Shown: positions 1,703 through 8,405 of the stretch, in pieces
How the letters are laid out: the number at the start of each line of letters is the position of its first letter
Position numbering within the stretch: position 1 is the stretch's first letter
Assembly (NCBI RefSeq): GCF_026196735.1
Contig: NZ_JAPHUF010000018.1
Coordinates: 1 to 36,981 of the forward strand
Reading direction: 5' to 3'
From: Sulfurimonas sp.
Lineage (GTDB): Bacteria > Campylobacterota > Campylobacteria > Campylobacterales > Sulfurimonadaceae
Length of the DNA: 36,981 bases
Made by a program: the position numbers and the translations under genes
The notes under the pieces: model-generated
What the model saw: the letters and a program-made list of their open reading frames with translations, nothing else
What the model was told of the DNA's origin: nothing
Database searches by the model: none

Positions 1703-2983
1703 ATGAAAAGAACAATTAAATTAGCAGTGGTAGCTGCATTAGCTTTAGGTGCAACTTCTGCATTTGCAACAAACGGTTCAACAATGATAGGAATCGGTGC
1801 TAAGTCTCGTGCAATGGGTGGTGTTGGTATAGCTACTGGTTTTGGTGCTGAATCAGGCATCAATAATCCGGCTTTAATTACTACTATTAAAGGTGATAAT
1901 GAAGTATCATTTGGTGGTACTGTTTTTATGCCAGATATTGAAGTTCAAGCTAGTACAACTAACCTACCTAGTGGATCTGTTGGTGCTGAACAAACTAGTG
2001 ATTCAGACTTTTTTGTTATTCCAACTGTATCTTTAGCTAGTAAGATTAATGATAACTGGTACTGGGGTATCGGTATGTGGGGTACTGGTGGTTTAGGTGT
2101 TGATTATAGAGATGTAACAGAAAATACATTTAGTATGGTAACAGCACTTCAAACTATGCAATTTGGTCTACCAATAGCATATACTAATAGCGGTTTTAGC
2201 ATTGGTGTTACGCCGATTGTTCAATACTCATCATTAGATATTCAATATACTCAACCAGCTGATTTTATAATTCCTGGTGATGATGGCGAGATTGGTTCTG
2301 GTGTTGCTCAAGATATAGCTTTAGGTTTAAATCTTGGTGTAGCTTATGAAACAGATGGTTTAACTTTTGGTGCTATGTATAAATCTGAAATCAAGTTCGA
2401 TACAAAAGATGTAATGAATACTGCATTGGATGGTTTTGGTGTTGGACCTTCTTCTGGTGGTACTACAATCAATGAAATGGCTACACCGGCAGAAATGGGT
2501 GTAGGTGTAAGTTATACAATGAACGAGCACACAGTAGCGCTTGACTATAAAAATATTAACTGGGAAGATGCTGAGGGTTATAAAGATTTTGGTTGGGAAG
2601 ATCAAGATGTAATTGCAATCGGTTATGAGTATGCAACTGATGGTTGGGCTCTTCGCGCAGGTTACCAATATGCTGAGTCCGCTGTTCAAGATAATAGTGG
2701 AAAAAATTTAGCAATTGATGCAACTCATGCTACAGCTATGGCTGGAATGGGTATTACTGGAACTTCTTTAACAAACACATTTAACCTACTTGGTTTCCCT
2801 GGCACTCAAGAGTCTCACATATCTTTTGGTGGCACTTATGCATTTAATGAGACACTGTCTATGGATTTAGCTGTAGTATATGGTTTAGAAAACACTGAAA
2901 CATTTAAAGGCTTTACGGGTGAAGATATTAAAAGTACTCACTCTGAGCAAAGTTACAGTGTTCAAGTTAACTACGCTTTCTAA
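1703..2983 (+). CDS. OMPP1/FadL/TodX-family outer-membrane transport protein
   Basis: A 426-residue outer-membrane beta-barrel of the family that carries long-chain fatty acids or other hydrophobic compounds across the outer membrane. It has a Sec signal peptide cleaved after ATSAFA (about residue 22), then the FadL-type mature N-terminus NGSTMIGIGAKSRAMGGVG with the following NNPA segment, the typical plug region. The rest is alternating beta-strand text ending in VNYAF, with the terminal Phe used by the BAM machinery. The length is normal for the family. The start is set by GGAG at about 1693-1696, and the gene has its own promoter and terminator, so it is monocistronic. The substrate cannot be read from sequence; hydrocarbons, fatty acids or elemental-sulfur-linked hydrophobics are all possible. 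Confidence 0.88.
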   Translation: MKRTIKLAVVAALALGATSAFATNGSTMIGIGAKSRAMGGVGIATGFGAESGINNPALITTIKGDNEVSFGGTVFMPDIEVQASTTNLPSGSVGAEQTSDSDFFVIPTVSLASKINDNWYWGIGMWGTGGLGVDYRDVTENTFSMVTALQTMQFGLPIAYTNSGFSIGVTPIVQYSSLDIQYTQPADFIIPGDDGEIGSGVAQDIALGLNLGVAYETDGLTFGAMYKSEIKFDTKDVMNTALDGFGVGPSSGGTTINEMATPAEMGVGVSYTMNEHTVALDYKNINWEDAEGYKDFGWEDQDVIAIGYEYATDGWALRAGYQYAESAVQDNSGKNLAIDATHATAMAGMGITGTSLTNTFNLLGFPGTQESHISFGGTYAFNETLSMDLAVVYGLENTETFKGFTGEDIKSTHSEQSYSVQVNYAF

Positions 2984-3007
2984 GAAATTTATTTCTTAAT
3001 TTCTACA

Positions 3008-3037
3008 TGTCGTCCTTTGGGACGGCATATTTCTTTC
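3008..3037 (+). terminator. Rho-independent terminator of the FadL-family gene
   Basis: An 8-bp stem (3008-3015 with 3020-3027, including CGTCC/GGACG and one G-U pair) closes a 4-nt loop TTTG and is followed by the T-rich tail TATTTCTTT. It begins 25 bases after the stop codon. Confidence 0.8.
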
Positions 3038-3094: not shown

Positions 3095-3161
3095 AGTTAA
3101 AACAATACTTCTATATATACCAATTTAAGCTGAGAGTGCTTAATAAATCCTAATAATTCAG

Positions 3162-3218
3162 ACAAATTACAGATTTGTATGATATAATTATTCAGATTTT
3201 TGTGATAATTGTATCACA
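3162..3218 (+). promoter_or_regulatory. Promoter and operator cassette, copy A (DUF302-like lipoprotein)
   Basis: Three elements in order: the inverted repeat ACAAAT-N5-ATTTGT (3162-3178), the -10 box TATAAT (3183-3188, inside TTGTATGATATAAT), and the dyad TGTGATA-N4-TATCACA (3201-3218). With transcription starting near 3195, the dyad lies at about +7 to +24, so it could be a road-block operator or a hairpin at the 5' end of the mRNA. A near-copy stands at 3942-3999 before the next transcription unit. The repetition is seen; the regulator is unknown. Confidence 0.7.
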
Positions 3219-3245
3219 CGATTAAGTTAAATCAAAAGGAAACTT

Positions 3246-3827
3246 ATGTTAAAAAGAATACTAATAGGATTGTCTCCTATTTTAATTGCAACTATGTTTA
3301 GTGGTTGTACGATGATGAAAATGGGTGTAGCGTATATGGGGTTTCCATCAGAGGCACAAACTGCTTATGCGGAAATGATGGGCAATCTGTCTAAGACAGG
3401 TGATCCGGCTCAAGCTATGATGAAAGAGTGGAAAGTTGCTGATGATGTTAGCGAAGAAGATGTATTTGAAGCTATGAGAGAGTATGCCGGTGAATACAAC
3501 ATGAGATTTGTTGGCGAGAAAAACATGTTTACAATCGAAAATGGAAAACCTGATGAAATAGTACACGCTAGAATCGGTGAATTTTGTTCTTTAAGTATTG
3601 CTAAGAAAATGTTCAACCACTCTCGTTATTATGGTGGTTTTATGCCATGTAGAATTGTGTATGTAGAGTATGGAAATGGTGATAGATATCTTATCTCTAT
3701 GGATATGACACTTGCGCTTTACGGTGGAACAGATAAAAAACCAATTAGTCCAGATTTACTTGAAGATATGAAATCTGTTAAAACGGCTATGGAAGAGATT
3801 CCACGCATGGCTGCAGCAGGTGAGTAG
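3246..3827 (+). CDS. DUF302-like lipoprotein
   Basis: A 193-residue lipoprotein: signal peptide with lipobox TMFSGC (Cys21), a short linker, then one domain over about residues 65-190. The text FCSLSIAKK (Cys114), GGFMPCRIVYVEYGNGD (Cys135) and a following beta-strand resembles the DUF302 pattern, where a hydrophobic strand with a PC motif precedes a charged turn and another strand. The assignment is by eye. The start ATG has AAAGGAA 5-10 bases upstream. The gene is a single transcription unit with its own promoter cassette and terminator, but it shares that cassette with the two-gene unit downstream. A role in binding a ligand or protein in the periplasm is possible; none is established. Confidence 0.72.
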   Translation: MLKRILIGLSPILIATMFSGCTMMKMGVAYMGFPSEAQTAYAEMMGNLSKTGDPAQAMMKEWKVADDVSEEDVFEAMREYAGEYNMRFVGEKNMFTIENGKPDEIVHARIGEFCSLSIAKKMFNHSRYYGGFMPCRIVYVEYGNGDRYLISMDMTLALYGGTDKKPISPDLLEDMKSVKTAMEEIPRMAAAGE

Positions 3828-3868
3828 CAACTAGCTAACCTGTCATTTTAAGAATTCTCCCTGTTATA

Positions 3869-3896
3869 TTTTCACGCTTTTGCGTGAAAATCTTCT
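3869..3896 (+). terminator. Rho-independent terminator
   Basis: TTTTCACGC (3869-3877) pairs perfectly with GCGTGAAAA (3882-3890) around a TTTT loop, followed by TCTTCTT. It ends the DUF302-like lipoprotein transcript before promoter copy B. Confidence 0.82.
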
Positions 3897-3941
3897 TATA
3901 TCCCACTTTAATCAAAAAAAATAATTTAAATAATTAATATT

Positions 3942-3999
3942 ACAAATTATAAACTTGTATGATATAATATTTACAGATTCTTTGTGATAAAAGTATCAC
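3942..3999 (+). promoter_or_regulatory. Promoter and operator cassette, copy B
   Basis: A near-copy of the cassette at 3162-3218: imperfect ACAAAT-N5-ACTTGT (3942-3958), TTGTATGATATAAT (3955-3968, 14 bases identical to copy A), and GTGATA-AAAG-TATCAC (3984-3999). The similarity continues through TTTAAATCA and AAAGGAA to the ribosome binding site. The dyad arms are the same as in copy A while the four central bases differ (AAAG against ATTG), which suggests the arms are under selection. Confidence 0.7.
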
Positions 4000-4028
4000 G
4001 CGATGAATTTAAATCATAAAGGAACAGC

Positions 4029-5042
4029 ATGCTCAAAATAGTTATGAAAACAGCGGTTTTATTATCGTTAACTGTAACGATGGCATTTGCTTATGAAGCT
4101 ATCAGATTAAATGTATCTGAGGGAGATGTAAAAGAGAGAAATGCTGCATTTAACGAAATCTTGGAAGTTGACTTAGAAGATGCAGGTTTTACACCAAAAG
4201 ATATTCACCCTGGTATTGAGTTTTGGTATGGTAAATTTTATGGTACAAAACTATTAGACAACGGTAAAGCAAATCCTCAATTTAAAGATGACTATGTTGC
4301 CAATTTGGACAACCTTGGATTTATCACAATTTCAAATGAAGAGGCTATGCTTCCTCTACTTTTAAAGGAACCAAAGCTTGGCGGTTTTGCTCCACTTAAT
4401 TATCTTATTTATAAAAAAAAGAGTGAAAATAAGACTTATGTCGGTACTTTAACTCCTCAAGCTATGTTAGATATAACCGGTGTTAAAGATCCAGAGGTAA
4501 GAAAATCTTTTACTAAAATGATTGATGCTTTATCTGATGCTACTGATGAGGGTATGGGCGGGGAAGTTGAGTATATTGAGATAGATAAACTTAATGACAA
4601 GACTATGATGGAGTTTGAAATTCCCTTTGACAGAGGTAATGATATTTTATATGCTAAATTTGATTTTATGGATAAATTTGAAAAAGCATTTGAGAATGAA
4701 GAGTATATCATTGCCGGCAAAAGAGACTTTGTTGAGTATTGGGATGATGAAGATATGGAGCATGATAGATTTGATGCTTATTGGGTTTATTCTCTTTGTC
4801 ATTTTACATTTTCGTACACAGTATTTAATGTATGGCAGTATCCAGTGCTAGGTGTTTCTGCTCCATGTTCAATGTACATGTATTTAGAAAAAGATTCTAA
4901 TACTTTAAAAATTGGTATGCCAAGCGTAAATAACTGGATAACATTTGGAAAAATTACAGATCCAAAGAAAATTAAATTTATAAAAGCTATGGACGATAAA
5001 ATAAGAGAAATAATGATTAGTTTAGGAGCAAAAGAGGTATGA
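4029..5042 (+). CDS. Periplasmic protein with two DUF302-like modules
   Basis: A 337-residue protein with a Sec signal peptide, probably cut after AFA (residue 21), and no lipobox. Two halves look alike. Residues about 85-170 contain NLGFITISNEEAML, GGFAPLNYLIYKK and YVGTLTPQAMLDITG. Residues about 195-335 contain SLCHFTFSY (Cys257), VSAPCSMYMYLEKDSNTL (Cys280) and a final amphipathic helix. Both fit the DUF302 layout (helix, strand, P-rich hydrophobic strand, charged turn, strand, helix). The Cys257/Cys280 pair is spaced almost like Cys114/Cys135 of the preceding lipoprotein. The start has AAAGGAA 8 bases upstream. It overlaps the next gene by ATGA, so the two are translationally coupled. 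The function is unknown. Confidence 0.74.
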   Translation: MLKIVMKTAVLLSLTVTMAFAYEAIRLNVSEGDVKERNAAFNEILEVDLEDAGFTPKDIHPGIEFWYGKFYGTKLLDNGKANPQFKDDYVANLDNLGFITISNEEAMLPLLLKEPKLGGFAPLNYLIYKKKSENKTYVGTLTPQAMLDITGVKDPEVRKSFTKMIDALSDATDEGMGGEVEYIEIDKLNDKTMMEFEIPFDRGNDILYAKFDFMDKFEKAFENEEYIIAGKRDFVEYWDDEDMEHDRFDAYWVYSLCHFTFSYTVFNVWQYPVLGVSAPCSMYMYLEKDSNTLKIGMPSVNNWITFGKITDPKKIKFIKAMDDKIREIMISLGAKEV

Positions 5043-5887
5043 AAAAATTATTGACAGCTTTTTTTGGTGTAATGATTTTAACTTTTTTTGGTTGCACTAC
5101 TAAAAGCGCTAGTGTTCAAGCTGTTAGTGAGCCAACAGGTGATTCGTTTACATACTTTCAAGGTGCGTACATTGATGCCGATACAGCAGCTTCAAAACTT
5201 GAAGCAGCAGGGTTTGAGATAGTGGCAAGCTATAAGTCGATTGAAAAAGCCAAAACAATAATTTTTACATGCCCAACATTAAAAGCTGAAGCTGCTAGAC
5301 CCGGTCGTGCTTATGCTGCTGTTATGCGTATGTTTATAGATGAGAAAGAACAAACTATCAGTATTACCAATCCGGTTTATTTTGCAAGAGCATATATGCA
5401 GGAGTATTATAATCATGCTAAGTTTTCTGCAGTAGCAGATAAAATAAAGTCTGTCTTTAGCGGACTTAAAAACTCTCCTGATAAAATGAAGTATGCAGAT
5501 TTGGCAAATTTTCATTTTTCAATCGGTATGCCTAAATACAAAGACCAAGAAGTTATTGGCAGGGGATCAAATGCTGATTTGCTTGCCAAAGCTAAAGCAT
5601 ACAAAAAAGGTAAAAACTTTGTGTTTGAACTTAAACTTTCTGAGACATCAACACTTATCGGATATGCTCTTGGCAGCGGTACTACAAGATTTCCTAAAAA
5701 GATTGGACGCGCAAATGCCGGACTATTACCTTGGAGTATATCTATAGAAAATTCAAAAGCTAAGATTTTAAAAGGCGAATACTATATCGCTTTAAACTAT
5801 CCATTACTTGATATGGATGGATTTATGGGGATTATGAGTACACCGGATTCTGTTATCAAAGATTTAACAAAACCTTTTAAGAAGTAG
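5039..5887 (+). CDS. Lipoprotein with one clear and one weaker DUF302-like module
   Basis: A 282-residue lipoprotein with lipobox LTFFGC (Cys19). Module one (about 40-145) has the DUF302 hallmarks: a helix ending in LEAAGFEIVASY, a strand with FTCP (Cys78), and AAVMRMFIDEKEQTISITNP followed by an aromatic helix. A second, Cys-free region (about 172-280) has GYALGSGTTRFPKKIG, a LPWSISIE strand and a terminal helix, and may be a diverged second copy. It starts inside the stop of the preceding gene (ATGA overlap) and so belongs to the same mRNA as the periplasmic two-module protein. An envelope complex of the three products is plausible but unproven. Confidence 0.72.
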   Translation: MKKLLTAFFGVMILTFFGCTTKSASVQAVSEPTGDSFTYFQGAYIDADTAASKLEAAGFEIVASYKSIEKAKTIIFTCPTLKAEAARPGRAYAAVMRMFIDEKEQTISITNPVYFARAYMQEYYNHAKFSAVADKIKSVFSGLKNSPDKMKYADLANFHFSIGMPKYKDQEVIGRGSNADLLAKAKAYKKGKNFVFELKLSETSTLIGYALGSGTTRFPKKIGRANAGLLPWSISIENSKAKILKGEYYIALNYPLLDMDGFMGIMSTPDSVIKDLTKPFKK

Positions 5888-5917: not shown

Positions 5918-5938
5918 TGTAATGACTATATCATTACA
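5918..5938. terminator. Possible bidirectional terminator between convergent genes
   Basis: TGTAATGA (5918-5925) and TCATTACA (5931-5938) form an 8-bp stem with a 5-nt loop, spanning the purM stop codon and lying 31 bases after the plus-strand lipoprotein gene. No good U-tract follows on either strand, so this is a weak call. Confidence 0.35.
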
Positions 5939-6924
5939 ACTTCTCTATCTCCCTCTTTTATCTCACCTATTAGGTAAGAACCTTCTGCTTTGCCTAAAAC
6001 AGTATCAACATTTCTATCCTCAACTACAAGTACCATACCGACACCCATATTGAATGCTCTAAACATTTCATCAGGATCTACATGTTTACTCATTAGCTCA
6101 AAGATAGGAAGAACTTTTATAGCATCTTTTTTGACCTCTGCCATTAAATTCTCAGGAAGAACGCGAGGCAAGTTTTCGATAATTCCGCCACCGGTAATAT
6201 GCGCCATTGCTACAATCTCGTTTTTTAAGGCTTTAAAAGTTTTAACATAAATGTTTGTAGGTTCTAAAAGAGTTTCTATTAGAGGTTTACCATTGAAATC
6301 ATCTTGAAATTTCATAGCCATTTTTTCAAAGAGAACCTTTCTAGCTAGAGAGAAGCCATTTGAGTGAAGTCCAGAACTTGGAAGTGCTATAAGCTTGTGT
6401 CCGGCACGAACTAATGAAACTCTATCCATCTCAGATTTCTCAGCTACTCCCACAGCAAAGCCTGCAAGGTCATAATCATCTTCTGAGTACATTCCAGGCA
6501 TTTCAGCAGTTTCACCGCCGATAAGAGCACATTCGCTTCTTATGCAACCCTCAGCTATGCCTGCAACTACATTGGTAGCCACATTAACATCAAGTTTACC
6601 GGTAGCATAGTAGTCTAAAAAGAATGAGGGAGTACCAAAGTTACAAAGTAAATCATTAACGCACATAGCAACTAAGTCAATTCCTACAGTATTATGAATG
6701 CCGGAGTCAATTGCTAGTTTTAGTTTTGTGCCAACACCATCGGTTGCGGCAAGCATTACAGGCTCTTTGAATCCGGTAGGAAGTTCAAATGCACCGGCAA
6801 ATGATCCTATACCACCTAAAACACCCGGAATTTTTGTAGATTTTACTAATGGTTTGATGTTTTCAACAAAACTGTTACCGGCATCTATATCGACACCGGC
6901 ATCTTTATAACTAATTTGGCTCAT
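5926..6924 (-). CDS. purM: Phosphoribosylformylglycinamidine cyclo-ligase
   Basis: AIR synthetase, which closes the imidazole ring in step five of purine synthesis (FGAM + ATP to AIR) in the cytosol. The 332 residues are close to the normal length. Visible PurM signatures are ISYKDAGVDIDAGN at the N-terminus, PVMLAATDGVGTKLKLA, VGIDLVAMCVNDLL, ALIGGETAEMPGMY and AHITGGGIIENLPRVLP, all expected for the ATP-binding PurM fold. The start ATG is supported by GGAG 7 bases upstream. It has its own TATAAT promoter (7039-7044) and an unusually structured leader of about 108 nt. It is downstream of the sulfide dehydrogenase gene on the same strand, but the internal promoter suggests separate control. 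Confidence 0.97.
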   Translation of the reverse strand: MSQISYKDAGVDIDAGNSFVENIKPLVKSTKIPGVLGGIGSFAGAFELPTGFKEPVMLAATDGVGTKLKLAIDSGIHNTVGIDLVAMCVNDLLCNFGTPSFFLDYYATGKLDVNVATNVVAGIAEGCIRSECALIGGETAEMPGMYSEDDYDLAGFAVGVAEKSEMDRVSLVRAGHKLIALPSSGLHSNGFSLARKVLFEKMAMKFQDDFNGKPLIETLLEPTNIYVKTFKALKNEIVAMAHITGGGIIENLPRVLPENLMAEVKKDAIKVLPIFELMSKHVDPDEMFRAFNMGVGMVLVVEDRNVDTVLGKAEGSYLIGEIKEGDREVVMI

Positions 6925-7067: not shown

Positions 7068-8405
7068 TTAGGAATTTTTATCTCCAAACATGTCATAGTA
7101 TAAAGCTGTTGCCCAGCCGTATATAGAATTCCCATTTGTTTTACCGTCTTTTTTCCAGTCTTCACTGCTTAGTGTTCCGGCAAAATCAAATGCTTTAGTC
7201 TTTTTGTCATATGAGTATTGAGTATAAATGTAGATAGCTTTTTCAGGTGCGGTAGATATGGCTGAAAAACAGGTTGTGGTTGGAGGTTCCCAAGCTAATA
7301 CAGCTGTTTTGTTGATTCTTTGTGCAATGTTTTGAGCGACGATTAAGCCTTCAGAGTTTGCAGTGTTTCCTGACTTTGAAAAGCCCATTGGGCGAGCATC
7401 GCCGGTAATGAAAACATTTTTTGCACCAACGGCTTCATATGTTAAAGGGTTGATATTTCCTTCCATCATATTTTTAGCATCTTTTGCTAAGCCAACTCTC
7501 TCTAAGATTTTAGCACCTCTTACATGTGGATAAAAAGATGCATCTTCAAACTCAAACTCGTCAAATTCGGTATATACGATTTTATTATTTAAATCAATTT
7601 CATTGATAGGAGAGCTAGGAAGATATTCAAGATAATCAGCATAAAGCTCATCAAATGCACTTTGAAAACCTTTCTCTTTAATAGTAATTGTGTTGTTCTC
7701 ATCAAGTAAAATAACTTTACCTTTTATCTTGTTTTGTTTAAAGTACTCAGCAACTATGCAAGCTCTTTCATATGGAGCAGGAAGGCATCTGTAATTTCCA
7801 GAGGGAACAGTCATTATAAAATTTCCACCTTTGAAGTTTAAAATTTTATTTTTTAATGTAATATGCTCAGAACCTGGAATAAAACCAGCCGGATACTCAT
7901 GTCTGAGTCTATTTTCAAAAGCTATATCTTCTGTCCACCGAGAGTAATCATAGTCAATTCCCGGAGCAAAAACCAGGTAATCATATTTTATATTTCCATT
8001 ACTAGTTTGTAAGATTTGTTTTTCTTTGTCAAGTCCGATTGCCGTTGCTTGAAAGTAAGTATAGTTGTAGTTTCTAGCAGCTTGGAGGTAATCATGTTTT
8101 AAAAACTCAAGCTCAACCTTATCTACTAACCATAAGTTACTGACAGGGCATGATGTGAATTCATGTCTTTGTTCCACTAGGATTACTTCTGCATCCGGAG
8201 CAAATACTTTTGTGTTCTTTGCAATTGACAGCCCGGACCACCCACCACCTACAACCACCACTCTAGGTTTATCTGTGTCAGGCAGAGGTGCTTTGTAGTC
8301 AGTATCTTGTTTTGGAGTGCTCAAGCTATCGTTATTACCGGCAAAAGCGGAAGTCGCTACTGCTAATCCTGATAACGCCAAAACTTCTCTTCGTGAAATA
8401 GCCAT
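7068..8405 (-). CDS. Flavocytochrome c sulfide dehydrogenase-type flavoprotein (FccB/SoxF-like)
   Basis: A 445-residue FAD protein of the sulfide dehydrogenase family, which oxidises sulfide in the periplasm and passes electrons to a c-type cytochrome. The N-terminus carries a twin-arginine signal (SRREVLALSGLA), so it is exported folded with its cofactor. VVVVGGGWSGL (about 49-59) is the FAD Rossmann motif. TSCPVSN (Cys86) matches the FccB cysteine that binds FAD covalently. YRCLPAPYERA (Cys207) and TTTCFS (Cys379) match the redox-active cysteine pair, and FITGDARPM is the second FAD motif. All three key cysteines are present, so activity is likely. No cytochrome subunit gene is adjacent; a small DUF2892 membrane protein lies directly upstream in the same unit. 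Confidence 0.88.
   Translation of the reverse strand: MAISRREVLALSGLAVATSAFAGNNDSLSTPKQDTDYKAPLPDTDKPRVVVVGGGWSGLSIAKNTKVFAPDAEVILVEQRHEFTSCPVSNLWLVDKVELEFLKHDYLQAARNYNYTYFQATAIGLDKEKQILQTSNGNIKYDYLVFAPGIDYDYSRWTEDIAFENRLRHEYPAGFIPGSEHITLKNKILNFKGGNFIMTVPSGNYRCLPAPYERACIVAEYFKQNKIKGKVILLDENNTITIKEKGFQSAFDELYADYLEYLPSSPINEIDLNNKIVYTEFDEFEFEDASFYPHVRGAKILERVGLAKDAKNMMEGNINPLTYEAVGAKNVFITGDARPMGFSKSGNTANSEGLIVAQNIAQRINKTAVLAWEPPTTTCFSAISTAPEKAIYIYTQYSYDKKTKAFDFAGTLSSEDWKKDGKTNGNSIYGWATALYYDMFGDKNS

Follow-up and report, generated by a model that had tools for sequence, protein, structure and literature searches.

The stretch of DNA analysed in this study (hereafter the window) covers positions 1–36,981 of contig NZ_JAPHUF010000018.1 from Sulfurimonas sp., the genome assembly of which amounts to 2.19 Mb. 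It carries three neighbouring genes for envelope proteins of the DUF302 type, designated here as P1, P2 and P3, behind a gene for a FadL/OmpP1-type outer-membrane channel (1703..2983; 426 amino acids). All four genes lie on the forward strand. The channel scored 112.4 bits against PF03349 (cut-off, 29.7 bits) and is a member of that family. P1 (3246..3827; 193 amino acids) is a lipoprotein with the lipobox FSGC and one DUF302 module, P2 (4029..5042; 337 amino acids) is a two-module periplasmic protein with a Sec-like signal peptide recognised by eye and no lipobox, and P3 (5039..5887; 282 amino acids) is a second lipoprotein (lipobox FFGC) with a DUF302-like N-terminal module at residues 36–144 and a probable second one. 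The genes for P2 and P3 overlap by 4 bases. A convergent purM homologue on the reverse strand (5926..6924), named by eye from its sequence without a family test, marks the far edge of the slot that begins with fadL. An earlier note on this DNA had described the three genes as encoding a lipoprotein, a periplasmic protein and another lipoprotein, with which the lipoboxes and the plain signal peptide agree; it omitted the FadL-type channel, a recurrent upstream neighbour, and a cysteine pair conserved in P1 and P2. The locus is built from known parts in a new combination, namely fadL and P2-P3, with P1 as an optional member.

Putative promoters, found by pattern matching on the forward strand, precede P1 (CAGACA-18-TATAAT at 3159..3188) and P2 (ATTACA-18-TATAAT at 3939..3968), both with TG before the −10 box. 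The extended −10 element, TATGATATAAT, occurs at 3178 and 3958. Terminator-like stems on the same strand, likewise pattern matches, follow fadL (3007..3028) and P1 (3868..3891). As the scan gave three stems in the region versus 1.5 in shuffled sequences, the evidence for terminators is weak; nevertheless, with these stems and the separate promoters of P1 and P2, fadL, P1 and P2-P3 look like separate transcription units. The claim that the two DUF302 units have near-identical promoters held well: promoter and leader of P1 and P2 are identical at 77 of 94 aligned positions (82%), with an alignment score of 50, whereas 1000 mononucleotide shuffles yielded 7.7 ± 2.4 and at most 18. Downstream of the −10 box and before the ribosome-binding site, both leaders contain a common palindrome, TGTGATA-N4-TATCAC (3201..3217 and 3983..3999; no strand assigned), and a 23-base pattern derived from the two copies matched twice in the window and never in 100 shuffles.

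The relationship to DUF302 was supported in a different manner for each protein. P1 exceeded the Pfam cut-off for DUF302 (PF03625; 28.6 versus 23 bits). P2 of the window fell below it (20.7 bits), and all 31 aligned P2 proteins matched the family at E ≤ 1, the best at 1.6e-8. None of the 34 aligned P3 proteins matched DUF302 in Pfam, and we therefore call P3 DUF302-like by fold and not a member of the family. The P2 region 190–333 in an AlphaFold model was aligned by VIA-align to 1q9u over 128 residues (Z = 13.3; root-mean-square deviation, 2.2); 1q9u, 7tj1 and 1j3m stood at Z = 12.0–13.3 (1j3m at 12.0), and the first other fold at 6.1. For P3 36–144, the same three structures stood at Z = 8.7–9.4 (1j3m, 9.4; 1q9u, 9.1; 105–108 residues aligned), and the first other fold at 6.0. 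Each of these lists is dominated by one module, so that the absence of other folds from them is meaningless, and the models, made from shallow alignments (9 and 8 sequences), are weak overall, with a mean predicted local distance difference test (pLDDT) score of 54.7 for P2 and 67.2 for P3, albeit with moderate confidence in the N-terminal module of the latter. The record of 1q9u is titled DUF302, while that of 7tj1 is titled as a fluoride transporter, and we count 7tj1 as DUF302-like by its fold only. Foldseek also ranked 1q9u first for the P2 model (E = 1.8e-4); for P3 it returned nothing at E ≤ 0.001, the top two rows being RdgC with deviations of 19–21.

P2 is regarded as a two-module protein, as (i) its N-terminal module is matched by DUF302 in Pfam at residues 106–143 and (ii) its C-terminal module is assigned by fold. 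When parts of the three families were compared profile to profile, only the two halves of P2 were clearly similar (probability 84.8, P = 6.6e-6). In the C-terminal half of P3, the order of structural elements repeats, partly at low pLDDT, and the match between its half profiles was weak (P = 0.00087, probability 23); P3 thus appears to contain one DUF302-like module and probably a second. Comparison of the whole P1, P2 and P3 family profiles gave no usable similarity, for which reason the common architecture of the three rests on Pfam and fold. Sequence searches against the PDB gave nothing significant, with 1q9u as the top row at E = 0.76 for P1 and 0.2 for P2; PHROGs gave no match at E ≤ 0.01, and NCBIfam none above cut-off for any of the three proteins. 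With family searches and single-protein structure prediction, a DUF302-type module was recovered in each protein, as the earlier note had anticipated: in P1 by Pfam, in P2 by family-wide Pfam matches and fold, and in P3 by fold only. Two more DUF302 genes are found elsewhere in the same genome (C17:36689-36874, 69.2 bits; C4:106444-106635, 43.8 bits), with matches longer than that of P1.

Within the genus, P3 was matched in 72 of 135 genomes and P1 in 73, and we compared the 30 best P3 loci and the 20 best P1 loci (individual loci are cited by L numbers, and genomes by G numbers); weaker P3-like matches are not included. All 30 P3 loci have P2 directly upstream and purM downstream. FadL lies within the flank in 22, and P1 stands between in 3 more; in the remaining five, which have short flanks, neither FadL nor P1 was seen. 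Eleven of the 20 P1 loci occupy the fadL-purM slot, and only 4 of these 11 carry P2-P3 as well. In one of the P1 loci (L044), P1 begins just 20 bases after fadL. The other nine showed no fadL, P2 or purM in the flank examined, some of them lying at contig ends. The slot can thus be occupied by P1 instead of P2-P3 or in addition to it, and the trio is not fixed. Of the one three-gene system proposed earlier, P2-P3 stands as a fixed pair, while an obligatory association with P1 does not.

When the P2 alignment was searched against 149 genomes of the order, 21 matches were close (>200 bits) and 44 more distant. The close matches fall in 17 genomes, of which 15 lie outside the genus. Among the 15, a separate P3 follows P2 in seven (L157–L161, L168 and L170), and in five the two are fused through proline-rich linkers, either as P2-P3 (701 amino acids in L165; 708 in L169) or as P2-P2-P3 (1040 in L162, 1070 in L164 and 1064 in L166). 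Pfam gave no match for the L165 fusion at E ≤ 0.01; tblastn with P2 and P3 identified its parts. FadL precedes the pair in L157 and follows the fusion in L164 (108.5 bits in Pfam) and L166. Since gene order differs outside the genus, the association is not simply an inherited Sulfurimonas arrangement. On the basis of this gene organisation, we consider it very probable that P2 and P3 form a complex, and likely that FadL is functionally linked to them. The multi-subunit complex suggested previously gains support from the fusions for P2-P3. FadL was matched in 13 of the 17 genomes with close P2 (one below cut-off) and in 93 of the 149 overall, an enrichment that is not convincing. By score and by the range of the profile covered, the FadL matches in these 149 genomes apparently fall into two groups, divided at ~106 bits; in that comparison, the FadL of the window and those beside P2-P3 scored 76–101 bits and fell in the lower group.

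Mature P1 and P2 contain exactly two cysteines each, arranged as C-x(~20)-PC, in 19/19 and 31/31 proteins, respectively. The pair is C114 and C135 in P1 (kept in 19/19), and C257 and C280 in P2, where it is confined to the C-terminal module. The pattern was also present in all 15 close P2 loci found beyond the genus and in all 15 rows of additional P1-like proteins (of which L145 sits in the slot, and L147 and L148 duplicate L049 and L057). Among rows of P2-like proteins it occurs in 22 of 23, the exception being L154; L131 is counted twice here, and two of the rows are from the close clade. It was absent from all 34 P3 proteins, in which no cysteine is conserved.

The palindrome of the two leaders was examined in 22 related leaders (clade A), consisting of the P1 leaders of the slot and P2 leaders of at least 58% identity, and in 17 others (clade B); the counts leave out the P1 leaders of L044 (20-base gap) and L055 (match starting at residue 12) as well as leaders shorter than the length used. 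GTGATA-N4-TATCAC was found in 17 of the 22 clade-A leaders, with 0.0 expected from mononucleotide shuffles. Among the other five, one base is changed in L065 and L045, and both G006 leaders and the P2 leader of G087 lack the palindrome. It is absent from clade B, in which TTGTGA occurs in 10/17 leaders and the direct repeat TTGTGA-N5-TTGTGA in 5/17. Such an element may act either on DNA, as an operator, or on RNA, as a hairpin close to the mRNA 5' end by which stability or translation is set. Clade-A leaders do fold better than their shuffles on average (mean z = −2.0), and a few of them (L046, L056, L006 and L045) keep pairing via G-U or outer-pair changes, as expected for a hairpin; apart from these changes the sequence of the stem core does not vary, and clade B has lost the hairpin (mean z = −0.56 in 15 leaders) yet retains TTGTGA. 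As the half-sites are largely invariant and pass from an inverted to a direct repeat, a DNA-binding protein fits better than an RNA fold. We consequently lean towards a putative operator, judging from the leader sequences, and regard the hairpin as rather doubtful.

Outside the locus, the genome of the window has one further GTGATA-N4..8-TATCAC site, C13:239978-239994 (L001), which lies ~20 bases 5' of a gene, named by eye, for a porin-like protein of 417 amino acids. In 80 genomes of the genus, the strict palindrome TGTGATA-N4-TATCACA was found in 14, with eight sites in P1 or P2 leaders, one ~257 bases upstream of the fadL of the slot (L033, G091) and five elsewhere. The reversed control pattern was found in 5 of the 80, so that the sites elsewhere do not exceed chance, and a wider regulon in these genomes was dismissed on this ground. 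Two of these five precede a gene for flavocytochrome c sulfide dehydrogenase in similar loci (L028 and L030); this is probably chance too. The strict palindrome hence seems nearly confined to the P1/P2 locus. CRP and Rex sites were set aside because their half-sites are spaced differently. Inspection by eye of the open reading frames between 1 and 12 kb of the window, where no family test was made, revealed no regulator gene.

Many P2 relatives lie in sulfur-related surroundings. Thirty of the 44 distant P2-like matches (24 of 33 genomes; one SoxZ row below cut-off, G275, left out) have a SoxZ gene within 10 kb, where ~1% is expected for a random gene; a binomial calculation on 30/44 assumes independence among related genomes and should not be read as a probability. 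Neighbours of these paralogs tested with Pfam include SoxY, SoxZ and MOSC (L135), DsrE, thioredoxin and MBL-fold proteins (L122), and a 5'-nucleotidase-type protein, which we read as a putative SoxB (L127). P2-P3 itself adjoins a rhodanese gene in L157/L173 and L161/L174 (Pfam-tested in L157 only), together with a molybdenum-oxidoreductase set named by eye. Published reports place DUF302 genes in similar settings: between soxA and soxB in Acidithiobacillia, with speculation on trithionate (PMC5037610), between soxF and soxH in Sulfitobacter (PMC11034169), and, as a relative that is mentioned, in the sqr operon of Synechocystis (PMC5061849). Two further observations concern P2-like genes. In L151 and L152, soxZ and MOSC-like genes (by eye) are followed by a tandem of two different P2-like DUF302 genes, with 38% and 32% identity to P2, one copy being closer. 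Three matches in L172 (6646–15167) recur at an exact spacing of 3883 bases with P2-like DUF302, DsrE-like and two cytochrome-like genes (by eye), and represent either a tandem triplication or an assembly artefact.

Taking these data together, we propose that FadL and the DUF302 proteins form a module for the uptake of a hydrophobic compound, most likely sulfur, and assign this overall explanation a probability of roughly 0.4. The FadL-type channel would admit the compound, and P2-P3, or P1, would receive it. P3 may anchor P2 at a membrane below FadL. Binding and assembly may fall to the modules that lack cysteines (those of P3 and the N-terminal one of P2), and the working site would be the C-terminal module of P2 or P1 by itself. 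With less certainty, the cargo could be held on the cysteine pair as a persulfide or thiol adduct and passed to periplasmic sulfur oxidation. Expression would be controlled through the promoter-proximal palindrome by a DNA-binding protein with TTGTGA half-sites. Sulfur is the likeliest cargo because the paralogs are sox-linked, the cysteine pair is conserved and the genus oxidises sulfur; still, its identification as zero-valent sulfur or polysulfide is tentative, and the full proposal of an undescribed uptake system, in which the FadL barrel brings in S8 or polysulfide and the DUF302 carrier takes a persulfide on C-x(~20)-PC, is on balance improbable. The P2-P3 unit is well supported and the FadL link fairly so, while substrate and chemistry are what we infer. 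The earlier suggestion that the proteins bind a small ligand fits this proposal; nothing found pointed to the alternative suggestion, protection of envelope proteins.

Several observations tell against the proposal. The close P2 clade lies near soxZ in only 1 of 21 matches, and SoxZ was not matched in 7 of the 17 close-P2 genomes. Of five P1-like loci outside the slot for which neighbours were listed, L132 alone has sulfur genes clearly next to it (by eye). Outside the genus, FadL adjoins P2-P3 in just 3 of the 15 genomes (two others lying at contig edges), 4 of the 17 close-P2 genomes have no FadL match, and no P3 was seen beside P2 in 3 of the 15 (L163, L167 and L171, the last at a contig end). 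The cysteine pair could be a structural disulfide. Fusions of P2-P3 also occur near RND/HlyD efflux genes, and published reports include DUF302 in a metal-resistance cluster (PMC7760498) and six DUF302 genes of Thiobacillus thioparus outside its sox operon (PMC5248467).

The main rival is that the module handles hydrophobic organics or lipids, which FadL passes, DUF302 binds and, in relatives, RND pumps remove. FadL channels pass hydrophobic molecules. The fusions in L162, L165, L166 and L169 lie near genes for a split RND-type pump, a HlyD adaptor and an apolipoprotein-like helical protein (partly by eye; HlyD was Pfam-tested in L162 and ACR_tran in L166, and the apolipoprotein match of L162 is below the Pfam cut-off), and together with the genomes lacking SoxZ they favour such a role. 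Nevertheless, the cysteine pair is kept in every close P2 locus outside the genus, SoxZ-free genomes included, which disfavours a purely hydrophobic pocket, as this would not need the pair, and the P2-like paralogs cluster with sox genes; we thus find a lipid or solvent role unlikely. An invariant cysteine pair would also suit a role in thiol redox or in the assembly of envelope proteins, such as biogenesis or repair of FadL, with sulfur being incidental. The thioredoxin-like genes beside P2-like paralogs and the position of P1 directly after fadL in L044 are consistent with this idea, which we consider decidedly less likely still, as close P2 occurs in genomes without a FadL match and the C-x(~20)-PC spacing differs from that of the CxxC redox motif. 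Finally, DUF302 genes of unrelated function may stand together by descent only. Gene order is indeed inherited in Sulfurimonas, where purM is retained as well although no functional reason for it is evident, but P2 and P3 remain together and fuse where the flanks differ, and P1 and P2 have a common, almost private promoter element, leaving this explanation with very little probability.

Compared with known systems, the fold of DUF302 (PF03625; 1q9u, 1j3m and, by fold, 7tj1) is found in the C-terminal module of P2 and in the N-terminal one of P3, and P1 and the relatives of P2 belong to the sequence family. Unlike known DUF302 proteins, the present ones comprise a two-module P2, a cysteine-free P3 outside the Pfam model and P2-P3 or P2-P2-P3 fusions, with linkage to FadL and a nearly private promoter element at the Sulfurimonas locus. 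As in the sox clusters of Acidithiobacillia and Sulfitobacter, the P2-like paralogs of Campylobacterota lie near soxYZ in a sulfur-oxidation setting; unlike those clusters, the locus of the window adjoins fadL and no sox cluster, and has P2-P3. By sequence the upstream gene belongs to FadL/OmpP1/TodX (PF03349), and we know of no FadL channel described with dedicated DUF302 partners. As a working analogue of P2-P3 we propose SoxYZ, a periplasmic two-protein carrier with a sulfur-binding cysteine. The SoxYZ type has the C-terminal cysteine arm GGCGG. P2-P3 differs in having no detected homology (no SoxY or SoxZ match in P1, P2 or P3; Pfam, E ≤ 1) and no such arm, its cysteines lying inside a DUF302 module; the three proteins end in ...AAAGE, ...LGAKEV and ...PFKK, and are not SoxYZ-type.

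DUF302 structures have been solved, and in the literature examined, mostly outside subscription journals and in part only, we found no established or demonstrated function for the family and no link between DUF302 and FadL. Which membrane proteins carry zero-valent sulfur (S0) into sulfur oxidisers is described as experimentally unconfirmed in one report (PMC10045233). The locus makes the fold testable in a defined envelope system: the fixed pair, its fusions, the cysteine site, the channel partner and the promoter element offer a handle on both DUF302 function and S0 entry. If sulfur uptake is genuinely the function, DUF302 would gain a role, and Campylobacterota a route for insoluble sulfur.

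Two features flank the locus. Two genes past it, 7068–8405 on the reverse strand encodes a flavoprotein of the flavocytochrome c sulfide dehydrogenase type (PF21706, PF09242), and a gene of this type is also kept past purM in L004–L006 and L008. On the other side, 5' of fadL, the open reading frame at 180–425 and a similar one in L145 (5666–6037) look spurious and share RERETPGPIPNPEAKPLIADNT in two species; they are perhaps the end of a ribosomal RNA operon.

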